Shown here one piece after another: positions 10,755 to 17,242 of a stretch of DNA of 64,000 bases. Origin of the DNA: Huiozyma naganishii CBS 8797 (Eukaryota > Ascomycota > Saccharomycetes > Saccharomycetales > Saccharomycetaceae); NCBI RefSeq assembly GCF_000348985.1, contig NC_035924.1:310001-374000 (forward strand). The letters are read 5' to 3'. The notes under the pieces are model-generated. The model had not been told where the DNA came from. It saw only the letters and a list, made by a program, of their open reading frames with translations, and did no database searches. The position numbers were made by a program, and so were the translations under genes. The first letter of the stretch is position 1. Each line of letters opens with the position of its first letter.

Positions 10755-11816
10755 ATGCAAAAAGAGGTTATCTATCTTTACGGGGGCGAGAACCAGCCAA
10801 AAGTGAAATTGACGTGTATCGCCAAAGCAAAAGATTTGCAACAGCTGACGGCATACTTCCATGAATTACAAAATCTATACCATTTGAAGTTTCGTTGCGA
10901 GGAAACCATTACCGAGAATCTCAAAGTTGAGTGTATCTCACATGGTGCCAAGGAGATGGACTCGTGGCCCTTTTACATAATCGACTACGACGAAGTCTAT
11001 GACTCCTTCTACATTTGGAAAACAAACGGCAAATGGGAACTAAACAAAATGGTCAGTGCTATTTACCGCGTACATTCTGGTAGTAAGCAGGTGAATAGTA
11101 CTTGGAGGAAGTACTTCTTGAGAGACTCTCGGTACAAGAAACATCCCATGAAAAACTGGCTCACACTGGCTCTCAACCAATTGAATGTTGATTGGTCGCA
11201 CGTTAACCTGGATGACTTTTGGATTCAATTCAACGTGTTGTTTGACCTGCATCAGAATGACGAGACCGTTTTCAATGAGTTTTCCTTCAAGAGTTTCATT
11301 TCAATGAGTCTTTTGAGGGCAGCCATTGCTGAAAACAAGAGGTACGTGGAGGAGAAGTTGAGTCAATATTACAATTCAATGAAGAAGAACGTTGGTACTG
11401 CTAACTACAACACAATGCTTGAAAACGAACGAAAGAGCCATTCTGGGGCAGAGGGCAACGACTCCACTGTAGGGAGTAACGAGACTTCTCCTGAATTTTC
11501 TTTATTCCCAGCGGAATTCAGTGATGGTGGATCCGATGATCTCAATGCTGATGCGGTTGACCTGAACGTAGAAACCTCTGGTTTGTATACTTACAAACGA
11601 GACAGGCAAGACGGGAAGAGAAATTCGATCTCCGTACCGGCTACAAACGACCAGATCTTCGCCAACTTTAAATCGCATTTTCAAAACGTTGTGGAGGATT
11701 ACGAGGTGTTTGAACTCAGAAGTAAGAAAGGTGTACCGATTCAATCAAGGGCCAGGCGCAACTCGCACAAACGAGTGCTTCAAAAGAACTCAAAAAACAG
11801 TGTTTCCAAAGCTTAG
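10755..11816 (+). CDS. YKR011C-family protein of unknown function
   Basis: A 353-residue protein that I identify as the ortholog of S. cerevisiae YKR011C from its place beside PRY2 and NET1/TOF2 and a similar length. Its function is not established. A well-ordered N-terminal half (about 1-215) is rich in aromatic residues (Trp, Tyr, Phe) and looks like a compact alpha/beta fold. An acidic, Ser-rich spacer follows (about 225-275), then a basic tail (about 310-353) with Arg/Lys clusters that may be a nuclear localisation signal. There is no signal peptide and no membrane segment. ATG 10755 is the first in frame. Confidence 0.78.
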   Translation: MQKEVIYLYGGENQPKVKLTCIAKAKDLQQLTAYFHELQNLYHLKFRCEETITENLKVECISHGAKEMDSWPFYIIDYDEVYDSFYIWKTNGKWELNKMVSAIYRVHSGSKQVNSTWRKYFLRDSRYKKHPMKNWLTLALNQLNVDWSHVNLDDFWIQFNVLFDLHQNDETVFNEFSFKSFISMSLLRAAIAENKRYVEEKLSQYYNSMKKNVGTANYNTMLENERKSHSGAEGNDSTVGSNETSPEFSLFPAEFSDGGSDDLNADAVDLNVETSGLYTYKRDRQDGKRNSISVPATNDQIFANFKSHFQNVVEDYEVFELRSKKGVPIQSRARRNSHKRVLQKNSKNSVSKA

Positions 11817-12218
11817 TGACCCACATATGGTAGTTAAAAGTTAGAAGCGCGGTAGTCCAGGTTGTTGCTACGTGACTTTGATTCATACTAGCACATACCC
11901 GATCACGCCTTCTTCTTCGAATCAATCGATCCAAATCATTCATTCATCTCCCTAGTCGCGAGAGATTCAATATGGTACGAGACTGTGCGAAGTAAACATT
12001 TTTTTTTTCACTTTTTTATTTGTTTACTGAAACGCCGTATTTTCGTATCCTCTACTAACTACACGTTCATGCTTCAATAAAGTGGGAGTCAAATGGGGAA
12101 GAGATTGGATGGAAGCGTTCTAAAATGTGATAACGAATGAAATATACTATAGTCGATCTATTTGTTTATACTGCTGCAGAAATTTTACCATTCTTGAATA
12201 TAGAGGATTTCATGCTAG
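11817..12218. other. YKR011C 3' flank, Z-side of the a1 locus
   Basis: This 402-bp spacer lies between the YKR011C stop and the a1 stop, which converge. It contains a long T-tract (about 12000-12018) and the HO-like site (12165-12182, separate entry). If this is a mating-type cassette, it is the position of the Z region. No coding function is seen. Confidence 0.5.
12165..12182 (-). other. HO endonuclease-like recognition site
   Basis: On the minus strand, reading away from a1, the sequence is TTTCTGCAGCAGTATAA. The S. cerevisiae HO site core is TTTCCGCAACAGTATAA, so 15 of 17 positions agree, including CAGTATAA. It starts about 35 bp after the a1 stop codon. In Saccharomyces the HO site likewise lies at the Y/Z boundary by the a1 3' end. 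Both position and sequence support a switching-competent or formerly competent mating cassette. Cleavage is not demonstrated. Confidence 0.6.
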
Positions 12219-12698
12219 TTATTTCGATCTAGCACGTTTGTTTATAAACTACTTAGGGTTAGTACTTAAGGTAACCAACAAAAACATTTTCAAAATTCAA
12301 CATACCCATATTCTTACTTGCAACGGACTGATCCCACATTTTCTTGCAATTAATTGTCTTTCTTCTTTTGTTAACCATTGTTTCTTAGTAAACACTTTCT
12401 CCAAGAATAAACGAGTACGCCTAGAAATGACCGGCCTATTCTTTTGTTCAATGATTGTAGAATATGTTTCGTACAAGTCTTTTAAAAGTCCCTTTTTCTC
12501 TGGTACATTAAGCCCCGATACAAGGATTTCCTGAAATTGAATGCGTTGTGTTAGTAGTAGAAAAGGGGCAATACTCCCTGAGAGTAAAATACGAACTGAC
12601 AACATACCTAAACGGTTCATTGGACTCAACGCGGAGAAGGGGAGGAAAAAGCAGAGCACCGTATCCATTTTGTCAATCCTCAAGAGCCAAGCAGACAT
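12219..12698 (-). CDS. MATA1: mating-type a1 homeodomain protein, two introns
   Basis: Homolog of MATa1, the homeodomain partner of alpha2 that represses haploid genes in a/alpha cells. Exon 2 encodes the homeodomain (RRTRLFLEKVF through ISPLQVRIW). Its last Trp codon ends at 12306, followed by GTATGT (12305-12300), TACTAAC (12264-12258) and a TAG acceptor ending at 12249. Exon 3 (12248-12219) adds FINKRARSK and a stop, nearly the S. cerevisiae a1 ending FINKRMRSK. Intron 1 starts at 12607 (GTATGT), with TACTAAC at 12556-12550. The 5' exon (ATG 12698 or 12668 to 12608) is not recognisably conserved. The near acceptor (ending 12531) breaks the frame, while a farther CAG ending at 12500, or retention of intron 1, keeps the homeodomain in frame. 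Homeodomain identity is very secure; exon 1 is uncertain. Confidence 0.85.
12249..12305 (-). other. intron 2 of the a1 gene (57 nt)
   Basis: It starts with GTATGT, has a TACTAAC branch point at 12264-12258 and ends in TAG. It splits the homeodomain between the Trp of RIW and the Phe of FINKR, the same place as intron 2 of S. cerevisiae MATa1. Splicing is needed to make the last nine residues. Confidence 0.9.
12500..12607 (-). other. intron 1 of the a1 gene (108 or 77 nt)
   Basis: It has a GTATGT donor (12607-12602) and TACTAAC at 12556-12550. Two acceptors are possible. A canonical TTCAG ending at 12531, 20 nt from the branch point, gives a premature stop. A CAG ending at 12500, about 51 nt away, keeps the reading frame. 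Unspliced RNA is also open in frame through this segment. The coordinates given are for the in-frame version. Confidence 0.55.
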
Positions 12699-13012
12699 GT
12701 GCTGTTGTCGCGTTCAAGAAAAACTACTGTGGAAATCAAAAAAGACGTCTAACAAACCCTATCAAACGTTTATATCCTGCTTCACGAGGTCCCTGCAGAT
12801 CTGACGTTGCTTTCAATGCCCTTCTGCTCAAGGTTCAATACCGCTGTCACTTTGAACGAATCGCATCTGTGTATCTTCCTTCGAGAGATCCAGTACATTT
12901 GAAAAAATATGAAATTTTTACCATAGTGTGATTGAGAGCATCGCTTTGTTTACTGTATACTGCCAAGGTCTTCCCACAGCCCACTCCCTTAAACACTCCA
13001 ATTTGTACTTAA
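12699..13012. promoter_or_regulatory. divergent a1-NET1 promoter
   Basis: About 310 bp separate the divergently read a1 and NET1 starts (about 340 bp if a1 starts at 12668), so the two genes share a promoter. A perfect Abf1 consensus (RTCRYTNNNNACGW) sits at 12846-12859. There is no alpha2-like homeodomain on the plus strand, which an X region of a standard cassette would carry. I see no clear Rap1 site or ARS consensus. Confidence 0.5.
12846..12859 (+). promoter_or_regulatory. Abf1 consensus site
   Basis: GTCACTTTGAACGA fits RTCRYTNNNNACGW at every fixed position. It lies about 155 bp upstream of NET1 and 150-180 bp upstream of a1. Abf1 is a general regulatory factor, and also one of the three proteins of the HMR-E silencer in S. 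cerevisiae. Confidence 0.6.
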
Positions 13013-16000
13013 ATGTATAAGGTACAGGTTGTGTTGGTTCCTCCCAGTGTGCGAGACAGTTTTGCTCCGCCGAATCTTGCTTCGGCGTTGGAGGATTCCT
13101 CGCATCTGCTGAATAATGGTATGGTTGCGGGTTTGCCAGCACAAGCTTCTGGCAACTTGCAGCAAACCAATCCCGAGGTTTCTGCACTGTACCAGAACTG
13201 GACCAATAACTCGTTCATGATGTCAAGTTTTTTGACTCAACCAAAGATGAAGAGATTTTTACACTTCACGAAGTCGAACAACACACTACTAGACTTGTCC
13301 CAAGAGATCCTGGATAAATGTGAGAAGATGTACCCGAACCTAACTGAAGATATTGAAATATTGAGTCTGCAAGACAGTAATGCATGCGATCTGGATCCAG
13401 ACTTTGTCGTCAAAGATGTTTTCAGTATGGATAATACCGTACGTGTAATATTGAAGGACGAATTGGGTGAGACAAACGAGCCTGCCCCCGTATCGGTATA
13501 CGCCTCAGTGAAAAGGAGAAAGCTGAATGATGGTAATCAGCAACTGGCCCCTGCGACTGCTCCTCAGGCCAGTGGATCCCTCAAGGTTGCCAAGAAACGG
13601 AGCCAGAGCTCAACTATCAAGGGCCCACCCAACCCTGGTTTGAGGATATCCACCCCGTTAGCGAATCAAATCTATCCAAATACTGTTACCAACAACTCTG
13701 ATGACGAGGAGGAAGTCGGGGAGAGATCGTTTTTACCCCCACCAACGCAGCCGCAATCTCCTCCAATACGTATAAGCTCCGGTATTGAAAACTACAAAAA
13801 GGTAAAACACTCCACCGATGTAGACACCGTTTCGAGATCCGAAACGGTCGATCCCGATAAATCAAGACAACAACGTATCCTGTCTGAGACTCCTTTGCGA
13901 ACAGCGATGACCCCAAACAGAGTCACTCTTACTGGCCAGAGAGTTGTTTCAGAAAATAACAATGGGCCCAGCAATGGGCTAATCTTTACAAGCACTACCA
14001 CCTCTCAACACCAAGTAAATACTGCATCAAGCCCTAGAATAACATCTGGTATGCTTACAATCCCAGAACCTAAAATCGCGGAGGTTGAAGAAGAATTGAA
14101 GGAGGGGCCTTCTAGCCCTTCCTCCCTTCTACCATCTAAGGCGGATCGTATTCCTATGAAAAAACCCTATATTGAAGATCCGGCAGGCGTTGATTTAGAC
14201 GGATCCATATCGTCGTCTTCATCGTCATCCTCTTCAACACATTCGGAACCAGCTTCGAAACAACTCAAGATTCACAAGCCGGAATCACTTCAAGTGGGGG
14301 AAACTAGTGCGAATGAAATAGGTGAAGGTTCTCCTATCAAGAACAGCCCCTTCAATAACATTCGACCAAACCAAGTACACAGAGAACTTGCTAACTCTAA
14401 GCAGAAAGAAACTAATGCCCCTCCGATTGTTAAAAACGGTGCAACAAAAATTAATGGCCATCCAAGTGCTCCAGTGAGAAACCGCGATTCCGAAAGGAAA
14501 AGTTCGCTTGAAGCTAAGGTAGAGAACAAATCTTTTTCGCAGAAGAGTCTGAGAAGAATAAACAGCTTTCCTGAAGATGATGAGGAAAGTTCAGGTAAGC
14601 GCTCTAGACTAGGGGAAACTGATGAGCCTATTTCTACTACTGAAGATGCGGAGAGTTCGTCCGGCGCAGATGGCGAGGACACTGTTCGTTACACTGATAT
14701 CAAGTCTGATTTACATAACAACTCTCATGAGCCCATACTGAAAGGGGATCTGTTGAATATAGTTGACAAGGAAGTTGCAAAAGAAGGGAAAGTATCTCCT
14801 GTGACAAATGCCAAAACGGCAATATTGGAAAAACCACATATACGCATAAACAACTCAAAGACTGATGGTAAAGAAGCATTGGGCACGGAGATCAACCCTA
14901 ATGGCAAAAATATTATTATTAACGAAAATGAACAAAAAAAGGTATTGAACATCAAGGAACTGAAAAGTGAATTAGTGGACAAAAACAGCGGCGCAAAAAC
15001 AGGAAAACCTGTTCAAGAAAACACCAAACCTGAAGAAAGAAGCAAATCAATTTCCGCCGGTGTTCAACCACTTGCCTCCAGTACACAACCATCAATAGTC
15101 AGTCAACAACAAGGACACACACCGACTCTAACTCACCCCCCTGCTAATATTGGATCGGTCAAATCGAAACCTCTTCCTTTGAAGAAAGTTGTTATTGATA
15201 AGGGTAATTCTGCTTCATCAAAGTCCTCTTCAGAAGAAGATAGTTCAACGGAAGATAATTCGTCTTCAGATTTATCAGACGACACTGAGGAGAAAACTCC
15301 AAGACTATCGGCTAGAAAAGTAACGATCAAGGCAGTTCTTGAACCTAGAACAGACGACCGTGACTCGGTTAAGTCTGCAAACTCGACAAATGCAAATCTG
15401 CCGGTATCAGAGAAAAAGGGACAGTCCATATCTGTATTGCATGAAACCGAAGACTCAGATTTTTCATCCGAAGAAGCTTCTAGCTCAGATGATGAAAGGG
15501 TGGCTAGGGTCAAGAAAGTGACTATGAAGGCAAATCCAAAGAAACAAGTACAGGAAATCGTAGAAAAATCGAAGCCTCCAATTCAAAAATACGTCCCGCC
15601 TAAGAAAAATCAAAAAGTTTACTTGAGTGCTGACTATATTGATACTACGGACGAGGAGTCCTCAGAAGATGAGGGTGACGACAAAGCGGACGAGCAAACT
15701 AAGAAATTGGTGGAAGCAAAAACAGCCAACAAAAACAATGTTTTTAAAGTGGATCATAATCCTCAAAATGGGACAGGCGTTGAAGCAGCAGATAGCAAGA
15801 AGAAAACTAAGTCGAACCCTGTAAAGAAGACGGTTAATCAGAATATGGAAAAACCAAATGCTGCGGAAGATGCAAGCCATAAGAAGAAGGAAGAGTCCAA
15901 GGTTTTCCAAAAAACAGACCAAAAGGCGCTGAAGGAGACAGTTGAAAAAGCAAATAATACAGGAAACGTTGTTTCCGTGCAGAAGAAAGAGCCTAGTCAA

Positions 16001-17242
16001 AATGTCGCCAATTCTACTGTAAAATCGAACATGCCAAATAAGAAGGACTTGAGTAAGCTTCTTGCGCCTAAAAATGTTCAAACAAAGCCGGCTGAGTCCA
16101 AGCCTCTTCCTGGAACAGAGTTGGACCGTAAAGGTAGCAAGATGGCAGGACCCAGCAGCTTTCCGGTAAAAGAGCCTTCCAAACCTGCACCGCTTGGTCC
16201 TGTTGTAGAACGTGAGGCGGAATCGAAAATATCCACTGACGTTTTGAACGAAAACGTCAAAAAGGATGCTATATCTTCAAAGTCTCAAAAACCCGTGGAG
16301 CCAGTATCCAAGCCAATAACAGGTACTGTCTCCAAGCCAGCATCTACTCCGGCCTCCAAGCCAATAACAGGTACTGTCTCCAAGCCAGCATCTACTCCGG
16401 CCTCCAAGCCAGTATCCACGCCAATCTCCAAGCCGGTACCCTCACCAAAGCCTAAGGATAGTAAGATTGACAGTGATGAATATTATTCAACATCATCATC
16501 CAGTAATGATGATAATGATTCCTCCTCTGGCAGCGATTCCTCCTCGGATGGCGATTCATCGCAAGGGGAGGAAGACGTTTCGTCGTCAGCCAGACTCCTG
16601 AAGAGGAAGATTGTTTCGCCACCAAGGGGTGTTGTGAACTCTTCCCAGAAGGAGCTACCATCGGTAAATCTCGATAGTATTACAGAAGTACCTCAATCGA
16701 CGCAGCAGCCGGCGCCTTCATCGCAAGAGGCAAAGAGACCACCTCTGCGAAAGCAATCGCTAGACAAACAAGACACACAACTTCCATCGTCACAGCCACC
16801 TTCCTCCGGTGCTAAAAAGACGACTACAAAGAGCGCATTATCGAGTCTTCCTCAGAAGTATCGTCCTTCATTGAGTTCACTGTCTGACTTGGTTTCCAGA
16901 GGTATCCCAGAAGTGAAGGAGAAGAACTCGAAGGCGGGCAAGTCTTCGCTAGTAAACAAGACAAAGCAGATAATCTCTGAGGATAAATCGTCCTCCGATT
17001 ATTCATCGTCCTCTGACGACTCCTCATCCGGCGACGATTCCGAGTCAGACTCGGGCTCGGATTCCGGGTCAAACTCAGGTTCAGATTCAGACGCGGACTC
17101 GGATTCCTCAGATTCTTCAGATGACGACAAAAGCAAGTTTATTAGTGCGAAGAGCGCCGGTGCTGCGCTAAAGAAGAAGAAGGCAAATAAGATATCTGGC
17201 GGGTTTGCATCTTTGGTAAGAGACTCGAAGCGTAAGACGTAG
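13013..17242 (+). CDS. NET1: nucleolar Net1/Tof2 family protein (RENT component)
   Basis: A 1409-residue protein of the Net1/Tof2 family. Net1 anchors Cdc14 and Sir2 at rDNA (the RENT complex) and supports RNA polymerase I and nucleolar silencing. The N-terminal 180 residues hold the conserved family domain. The rest is disordered, with many Ser/Asp/Glu clusters (acidic casein-kinase-type runs, for example at about 400-410, 735-770, 1165-1190 and 1320-1375) separated by Lys-rich stretches, and a basic C-terminus. It is longer than S. cerevisiae Net1 (about 1189) and much longer than Tof2. The position after YKR011C is the TOF2 slot, but the long acidic tail is Net1-like, so the ohnolog is ambiguous. 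It contains a perfect 48-bp duplication (separate entry). Confidence 0.85.
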   Translation: MYKVQVVLVPPSVRDSFAPPNLASALEDSSHLLNNGMVAGLPAQASGNLQQTNPEVSALYQNWTNNSFMMSSFLTQPKMKRFLHFTKSNNTLLDLSQEILDKCEKMYPNLTEDIEILSLQDSNACDLDPDFVVKDVFSMDNTVRVILKDELGETNEPAPVSVYASVKRRKLNDGNQQLAPATAPQASGSLKVAKKRSQSSTIKGPPNPGLRISTPLANQIYPNTVTNNSDDEEEVGERSFLPPPTQPQSPPIRISSGIENYKKVKHSTDVDTVSRSETVDPDKSRQQRILSETPLRTAMTPNRVTLTGQRVVSENNNGPSNGLIFTSTTTSQHQVNTASSPRITSGMLTIPEPKIAEVEEELKEGPSSPSSLLPSKADRIPMKKPYIEDPAGVDLDGSISSSSSSSSSTHSEPASKQLKIHKPESLQVGETSANEIGEGSPIKNSPFNNIRPNQVHRELANSKQKETNAPPIVKNGATKINGHPSAPVRNRDSERKSSLEAKVENKSFSQKSLRRINSFPEDDEESSGKRSRLGETDEPISTTEDAESSSGADGEDTVRYTDIKSDLHNNSHEPILKGDLLNIVDKEVAKEGKVSPVTNAKTAILEKPHIRINNSKTDGKEALGTEINPNGKNIIINENEQKKVLNIKELKSELVDKNSGAKTGKPVQENTKPEERSKSISAGVQPLASSTQPSIVSQQQGHTPTLTHPPANIGSVKSKPLPLKKVVIDKGNSASSKSSSEEDSSTEDNSSSDLSDDTEEKTPRLSARKVTIKAVLEPRTDDRDSVKSANSTNANLPVSEKKGQSISVLHETEDSDFSSEEASSSDDERVARVKKVTMKANPKKQVQEIVEKSKPPIQKYVPPKKNQKVYLSADYIDTTDEESSEDEGDDKADEQTKKLVEAKTANKNNVFKVDHNPQNGTGVEAADSKKKTKSNPVKKTVNQNMEKPNAAEDASHKKKEESKVFQKTDQKALKETVEKANNTGNVVSVQKKEPSQNVANSTVKSNMPNKKDLSKLLAPKNVQTKPAESKPLPGTELDRKGSKMAGPSSFPVKEPSKPAPLGPVVEREAESKISTDVLNENVKKDAISSKSQKPVEPVSKPITGTVSKPASTPASKPITGTVSKPASTPASKPVSTPISKPVPSPKPKDSKIDSDEYYSTSSSSNDDNDSSSGSDSSSDGDSSQGEEDVSSSARLLKRKIVSPPRGVVNSSQKELPSVNLDSITEVPQSTQQPAPSSQEAKRPPLRKQSLDKQDTQLPSSQPPSSGAKKTTTKSALSSLPQKYRPSLSSLSDLVSRGIPEVKEKNSKAGKSSLVNKTKQIISEDKSSSDYSSSSDDSSSGDDSESDSGSDSGSNSGSDSDADSDSSDSSDDDKSKFISAKSAGAALKKKKANKISGGFASLVRDSKRKT
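16307..16402 (+). repeat. perfect 48-bp tandem duplication within NET1
   Basis: Two copies (16307-16354 and 16355-16402) look identical and encode a 16-residue unit with SKP and TPASKP motifs, followed by further degenerate SKPV repeats. A recent in-frame expansion in a disordered region is the simplest reading. Confidence 0.8.

Follow-up and report, generated by a model that had tools for sequence, protein, structure and literature searches.

A 5'-truncated a1 cassette inside chromosome 3 of Kazachstania (Huiozyma) naganishii: a probable HMRa donor

Overview

The a1 homeodomain feature located 322 kb along chromosome 3 (C3) of Kazachstania (Huiozyma) naganishii is, with a probability of roughly 95% as judged from its sequence, HMRa, a donor in the three-locus MAT-HML-HMR switching system of this yeast. 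It was analysed within a 64,000-nucleotide stretch of C3, here called the window, and positions are those of the window unless a chromosome is named. The copy in the window is identified as HMR because 578 bp (12030-12607) are the same as at MAT, with zero mismatches, and because the X, Ya and Z organisation of a cassette is present (Table 1). The unusual feature of HMR, overlooked in the initial annotation, is the absence of exon 1 and of the DNA upstream of it.

Table 1. Features of the HMR cassette (window positions)
Feature	Position	Strand	Description
Z repeat	12030..12175	-	146 bp, 100% identical to MAT; at HML 138 bp (12038-12175), 99%
Y/Z junction, presumed HO-site region	12156..12195 (junction between 12175/12176)	-	40 bp identical to MAT
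Ya	12176..12240	-	65 bp, sole a-specific DNA in the cassette; codes for the a1 C-terminus NKRARSK, starting at the third base of the N codon, and for its stop
X repeat, HMR form	12241..12607	-	367 bp, identical (100%) at MAT and HML; spans a1 from intron 1 to the eighth nt of exon 3
a1 intron 1	12607..12531	-	77 nt, GTATGT...TACTAAC...CAG; its first base is the last base common to MAT
a1 exon 2	12530..12306	-	225 nt, most of the homeodomain
a1 intron 2	12305..12249	-	57 nt, GTATGT...TACTAAC...TAG
a1 exon 3	12248..12219	-	30 nt, FINKRARSK and stop

The a1 gene at HMR and its missing first exon

By its sequence, the minus-strand gene at 12219-12607 is real and of the MATa1 type. The homeodomain ending in FINKRARSK and stop, the 57-nt intron 2 and the second intron upstream, all described in the initial annotation, are present on the minus strand, and intron 2 lies inside the homeodomain just ahead of FINKR, as intron 2 of S. 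cerevisiae MATa1 does. The proposed MATa1 class is borne out by the spliced protein of the MAT copy, which scores 47.4 bits against the Pfam Homeodomain family (cut-off 22.9) and whose homeodomain portion does not differ from that of the window copy. The closest solved structures are the S. cerevisiae a1 chains 1akh, 1f43/1yrn and 1le8, and among the 81 solved sequences matched the four best all represent S. cerevisiae a1 or a fusion of it. Because 578 bp are identical at a second locus, the homeodomain match is not a matter of chance. A protein search (four matches, six candidates) also returned two annotated homeobox genes, KNAG_0C00795 and KNAG_0C01625.

Exon 1, the start codon and the upstream a1 DNA are absent at HMR because X, and with it the identity to MAT, stops precisely where exon 1 would meet intron 1. 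The initial annotation had placed the gene at 12219-12698; the a1 part of this interval stands, while 12608-12698 has to be removed from it, since the cassette stops at 12607 and DNA comparison found no match to the segment upstream at either MAT or HML. When intron 1 is spliced out, none of eight ATGs (seven within 400 nt upstream and one inside exon 2) reaches the end of the homeodomain at HMR and the longest peptide has 38 aa, so that the HMR copy seems unable to make normal a1 alone. Normal a1 should therefore not be expected from this copy in place, as far as can be predicted from its reading frames. When intron 1 is kept, four of eight ATGs (seven upstream and one inside intron 1) give proteins of 109-140 aa with the whole homeodomain.

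The last result bears on a very improbable alternative, in which the HMR copy is itself expressed: a message from 12608-12941 would keep intron 1 and encode an a1-like protein of at most 140 aa with a complete homeodomain. An open frame does run from the ATG at 12698 across intron 1 into exon 3 and has been annotated as a 140-aa protein, but the donor, the TACTAAC branch point and the acceptor of intron 1 are all intact, none of the eight ATGs examined reaches the end of the homeodomain once this intron is spliced, and the N-terminal 30 residues come from DNA without a match at MAT or HML. In alpha haploids, moreover, an active a1 homeodomain would be expected to repress haploid genes with alpha2, as a1 together with alpha2 does in S. 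cerevisiae. The public annotation KNAG_0C01625 corresponds to this 140-aa form, in which intron 1 is read as coding and the start is placed in unique upstream DNA (12531-12698); its gene model is probably wrong.

A start codon just inside intron 1, giving 109 aa with intron 1 kept, was set aside as a model of the gene because the MAT model has exon 1, donor, branch point and acceptor in phase. The same 109-aa model is also disfavoured by the equality of the MAT gene model to the public MAT entry.

Three cassettes on chromosome 3

Nine homeodomain matches were found genome-wide, namely three a1 genes with equal scores, one alpha2 at 26 kb and five others. All a1 loci are on C3: HML at about 24.8-26.8 kb, MAT at about 141-142 kb and HMR at 322 kb. 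MATalpha1 has a single match in the genome, at 24.9 kb on C3. Homeodomain, MAT-cassette and HML-cassette queries recovered the same three C3 loci, and no others, across the whole genome, and a whole-genome search with MAT and HML as DNA queries, in which simple repeats and very common words were skipped, found no cassette fragments beyond them. The genome-wide search for copies and comparison of flanks proposed in the initial annotation thus led to three C3 loci with X and Z repeats, those of HMR being common to MAT and to the other donor, HML.

At MAT, the a1 gene has three exons encoding 107 aa and is equal to the public entry KNAG_0C00795. The a1 gene is thus divided between X, with its first two exons and the opening 8 nt of the third, and Ya, with the remainder. 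The X repeat shared by HML and MAT is longer than that at HMR: at 610 bp, it also covers exon 1 and reaches 174 bp upstream of the start of a1. A 1264-bp segment with alpha1 and alpha2 lies between X and Z of HML in place of the 65-bp Ya of MAT and HMR; the locus contains these two genes and the first two exons of a1, and its Z repeat includes the final codons of alpha1.

The Ya part of exon 3 completes the N codon with its third base and goes on to KRARSK and the stop; the a1 frame at HML runs on as WFIKCYIPKC... By standard homeodomain numbering, this tail at HML replaces N51 and R53. A Monosporozyma servazzii protein labelled mating-type protein A1 ends in WFIKCRHKLI, close to the WFIKCYIPK of K. 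naganishii, and it may, from this similarity, be an alpha-side form of a1, that is, the a1 stub of an alpha cassette.

The MAT locus is flanked on one side by a gene for an amino-acid permease; on its other side, a gene for RNase H2 subunit C (RNH203-type) is followed by a RasGEF_N-domain gene, which we label BUD5-like. CAN1 and RNH203 flank MAT in most Kazachstania according to PMC6692504. The neighbours of HML are a PALP-type gene (CHA1-like) and a Vac17 gene, and CHA1 is named as an HML neighbour in K. naganishii in PMC10484914. For HMR, the initial annotation had named YKR011C and NET1. The NET1 assignment is supported by a match on 13013-17242 to the Pfam family for the Cdc14-binding N-terminus; YKR011C could not be confirmed for 10755-11816, where no Pfam family was found and none of six protein matches, the protein itself included, is named. 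The NET1-type gene also contains, at 16307-16411, a 57-bp exact self-match whose copies are 48 bp apart, making it a short tandem repeat.

The HMR site is internal, 322 kb from the left end of the 1310278-base C3. In the first 10 kb of C3 (1-10000), repeats with identities of 96% over 241 bp and 86% over 173 bp resemble those of subtelomeres. Of the origins considered in the initial annotation, a cassette copy away from MAT is upheld, while departure of the gene from the cassette system conflicts with X and Z repeats common to MAT and HML on C3; that this might be a new silent copy is contradicted by print, since HMRA1 is placed on the same K. naganishii chromosome in PMC11017505 and a 5'-truncated HMR a1 is described in the HMR passage of PMC10484914. 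An a1 gene outside the cassette system or an assembly misjoin, to which a site 322 kb inside a 1.31-Mb chromosome and far from its end might point, is a very improbable reading, because all three cassette parts, X, Ya and Z, match MAT exactly, a K. humilis contig carries the genes found around HMR in K. naganishii but no a1 gene (PMC11017505) and K. bulderi has three truncated HMR loci (PMC10484914). The contig is also as long (1310278) as the public one with both a1 genes, which indicates no more than a shared assembly.

Proposed switching mechanism

With the window copy taken as HMRa, switching to a would proceed as follows. HO would cut MATalpha at the Y/Z junction, and repair from HMR would replace Yalpha by Ya, which would be joined to the promoter, exon 1 and exon 2 standing at MAT to give a working a1. 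The HMR copy would thus give a functional gene only once copied into MAT. The identity and gene structure are direct observations; by analogy with S. cerevisiae and with published accounts, we propose the HO cut, the gene conversion, the promoter and a silent HMR. An HO-type endonuclease gene is present on C5 (571685 region, 588 aa, Hom_end and Hom_end_hint), assigned by its domain families, of which the Hint/endonuclease families also match a second gene on C3. This second Hom_end_hint gene, at C3:795122-796543 in a 1094-aa open frame, is perhaps a VMA1 intein (VDE).

The presumed HO site and possible protection of the donor

The Y/Z junction reads TTTCTGC followed by AGCAGTATAAAC at HMR and MAT, and TTAACGG followed by AGCAGTATAAAC at HML. 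In S. cerevisiae, the HO-site core CGCAACA is the start of Z, as stated in PMC7282813, and by analogy the HO site of K. naganishii HMR would lie at 12156-12195. From the junction, HMR and MAT remain identical for 146 bp into Z and for 432 bp in the opposite direction. The donors of S. cerevisiae are also shielded from HO by Sir heterochromatin (PMC6394760).

The 5' truncation can keep HMR silent, but alone it cannot protect the Y/Z site from HO. As the Y/Z site of HMR is the same as that of MAT and truncation is no shield, either local heterochromatin is present at HMR or HO cuts HMR and the cell copes. In the passages and abstracts searched, which do not include Gordon et al. 2011 and Wolfe 2015, no discussion of HO protection of the truncated HMR was found. 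From the cassette sequences, MATalpha cells should keep the a1 upstream DNA and exons 1-2, and their a1 should end in WFIKCYIPK... without N51 and R53. We offer only tentatively, as a doubtful proposal, the combination of an HMR that has heterochromatin of its own or tolerates HO cutting with a MATalpha that makes a decapitated a1 from an always-transcribed gene. If it were true, the a/alpha switch would toggle the last residues of an always-transcribed a1 gene, and the alpha form of a1 might be inert or might bind alpha2. The two duties of silencing, no expression and no HO cutting, may be separated at K. naganishii HMR, where the second could be tested alone.

Comparison with known systems

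The first description of this arrangement is probably that of Gordon et al. 2011 or Wolfe 2015. In the HMR account of PMC10484914, which cites Wolfe 2015 (its reference 53), the HMR a1 gene is 5'-truncated, the K. bulderi locus is likened to that of K. naganishii, and a split-gene donor is given as the explanation for internal HMR silence. HMLALPHA1/2, MATA1 and HMRA1 are reported on one K. naganishii chromosome in PMC11017505. The finding of a truncated HMR is, from these two accounts, already known. The locus described here is the same as the HMR of K. naganishii and K. bulderi in PMC10484914, being internal and having exons 2-3 only, with exon 3 supplied to MAT exons 1-2, and no structural difference is seen from that account as far as its HMR passage extends. 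What the present analysis adds to that passage is coordinates, a Ya size of 65 bp, an X that stops precisely at the 5' splice site, the form of a1 on the alpha side and an HO region identical to that of MAT. A donor without promoter and exon 1 is one route to a silent cassette away from subtelomeric heterochromatin, by structure and not by chromatin, a point that is itself already in print.

The HML and HMR loci of Candida glabrata also belong to a three-locus system with an HO homologue (PMC4619647). Similarities to S. cerevisiae HMRa include a two-intron a1 homeodomain gene, X and Z repeats, an HO-type junction at the start of Z, and a donor on the chromosome of MAT and HML. The Ya of S. cerevisiae, at about 640 bp, contains the entire a1 gene and its promoter, and HMR there is a subtelomeric locus under Sir silencing. 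Unlike S. cerevisiae HMRa, the HMR of K. naganishii has a Ya of 65 bp and, with X stopping at the exon 1/intron 1 junction, holds neither exon 1 nor the whole a1 gene with its promoter, and instead of lying near a telomere it stands 322 kb from the left contig end, inside C3.
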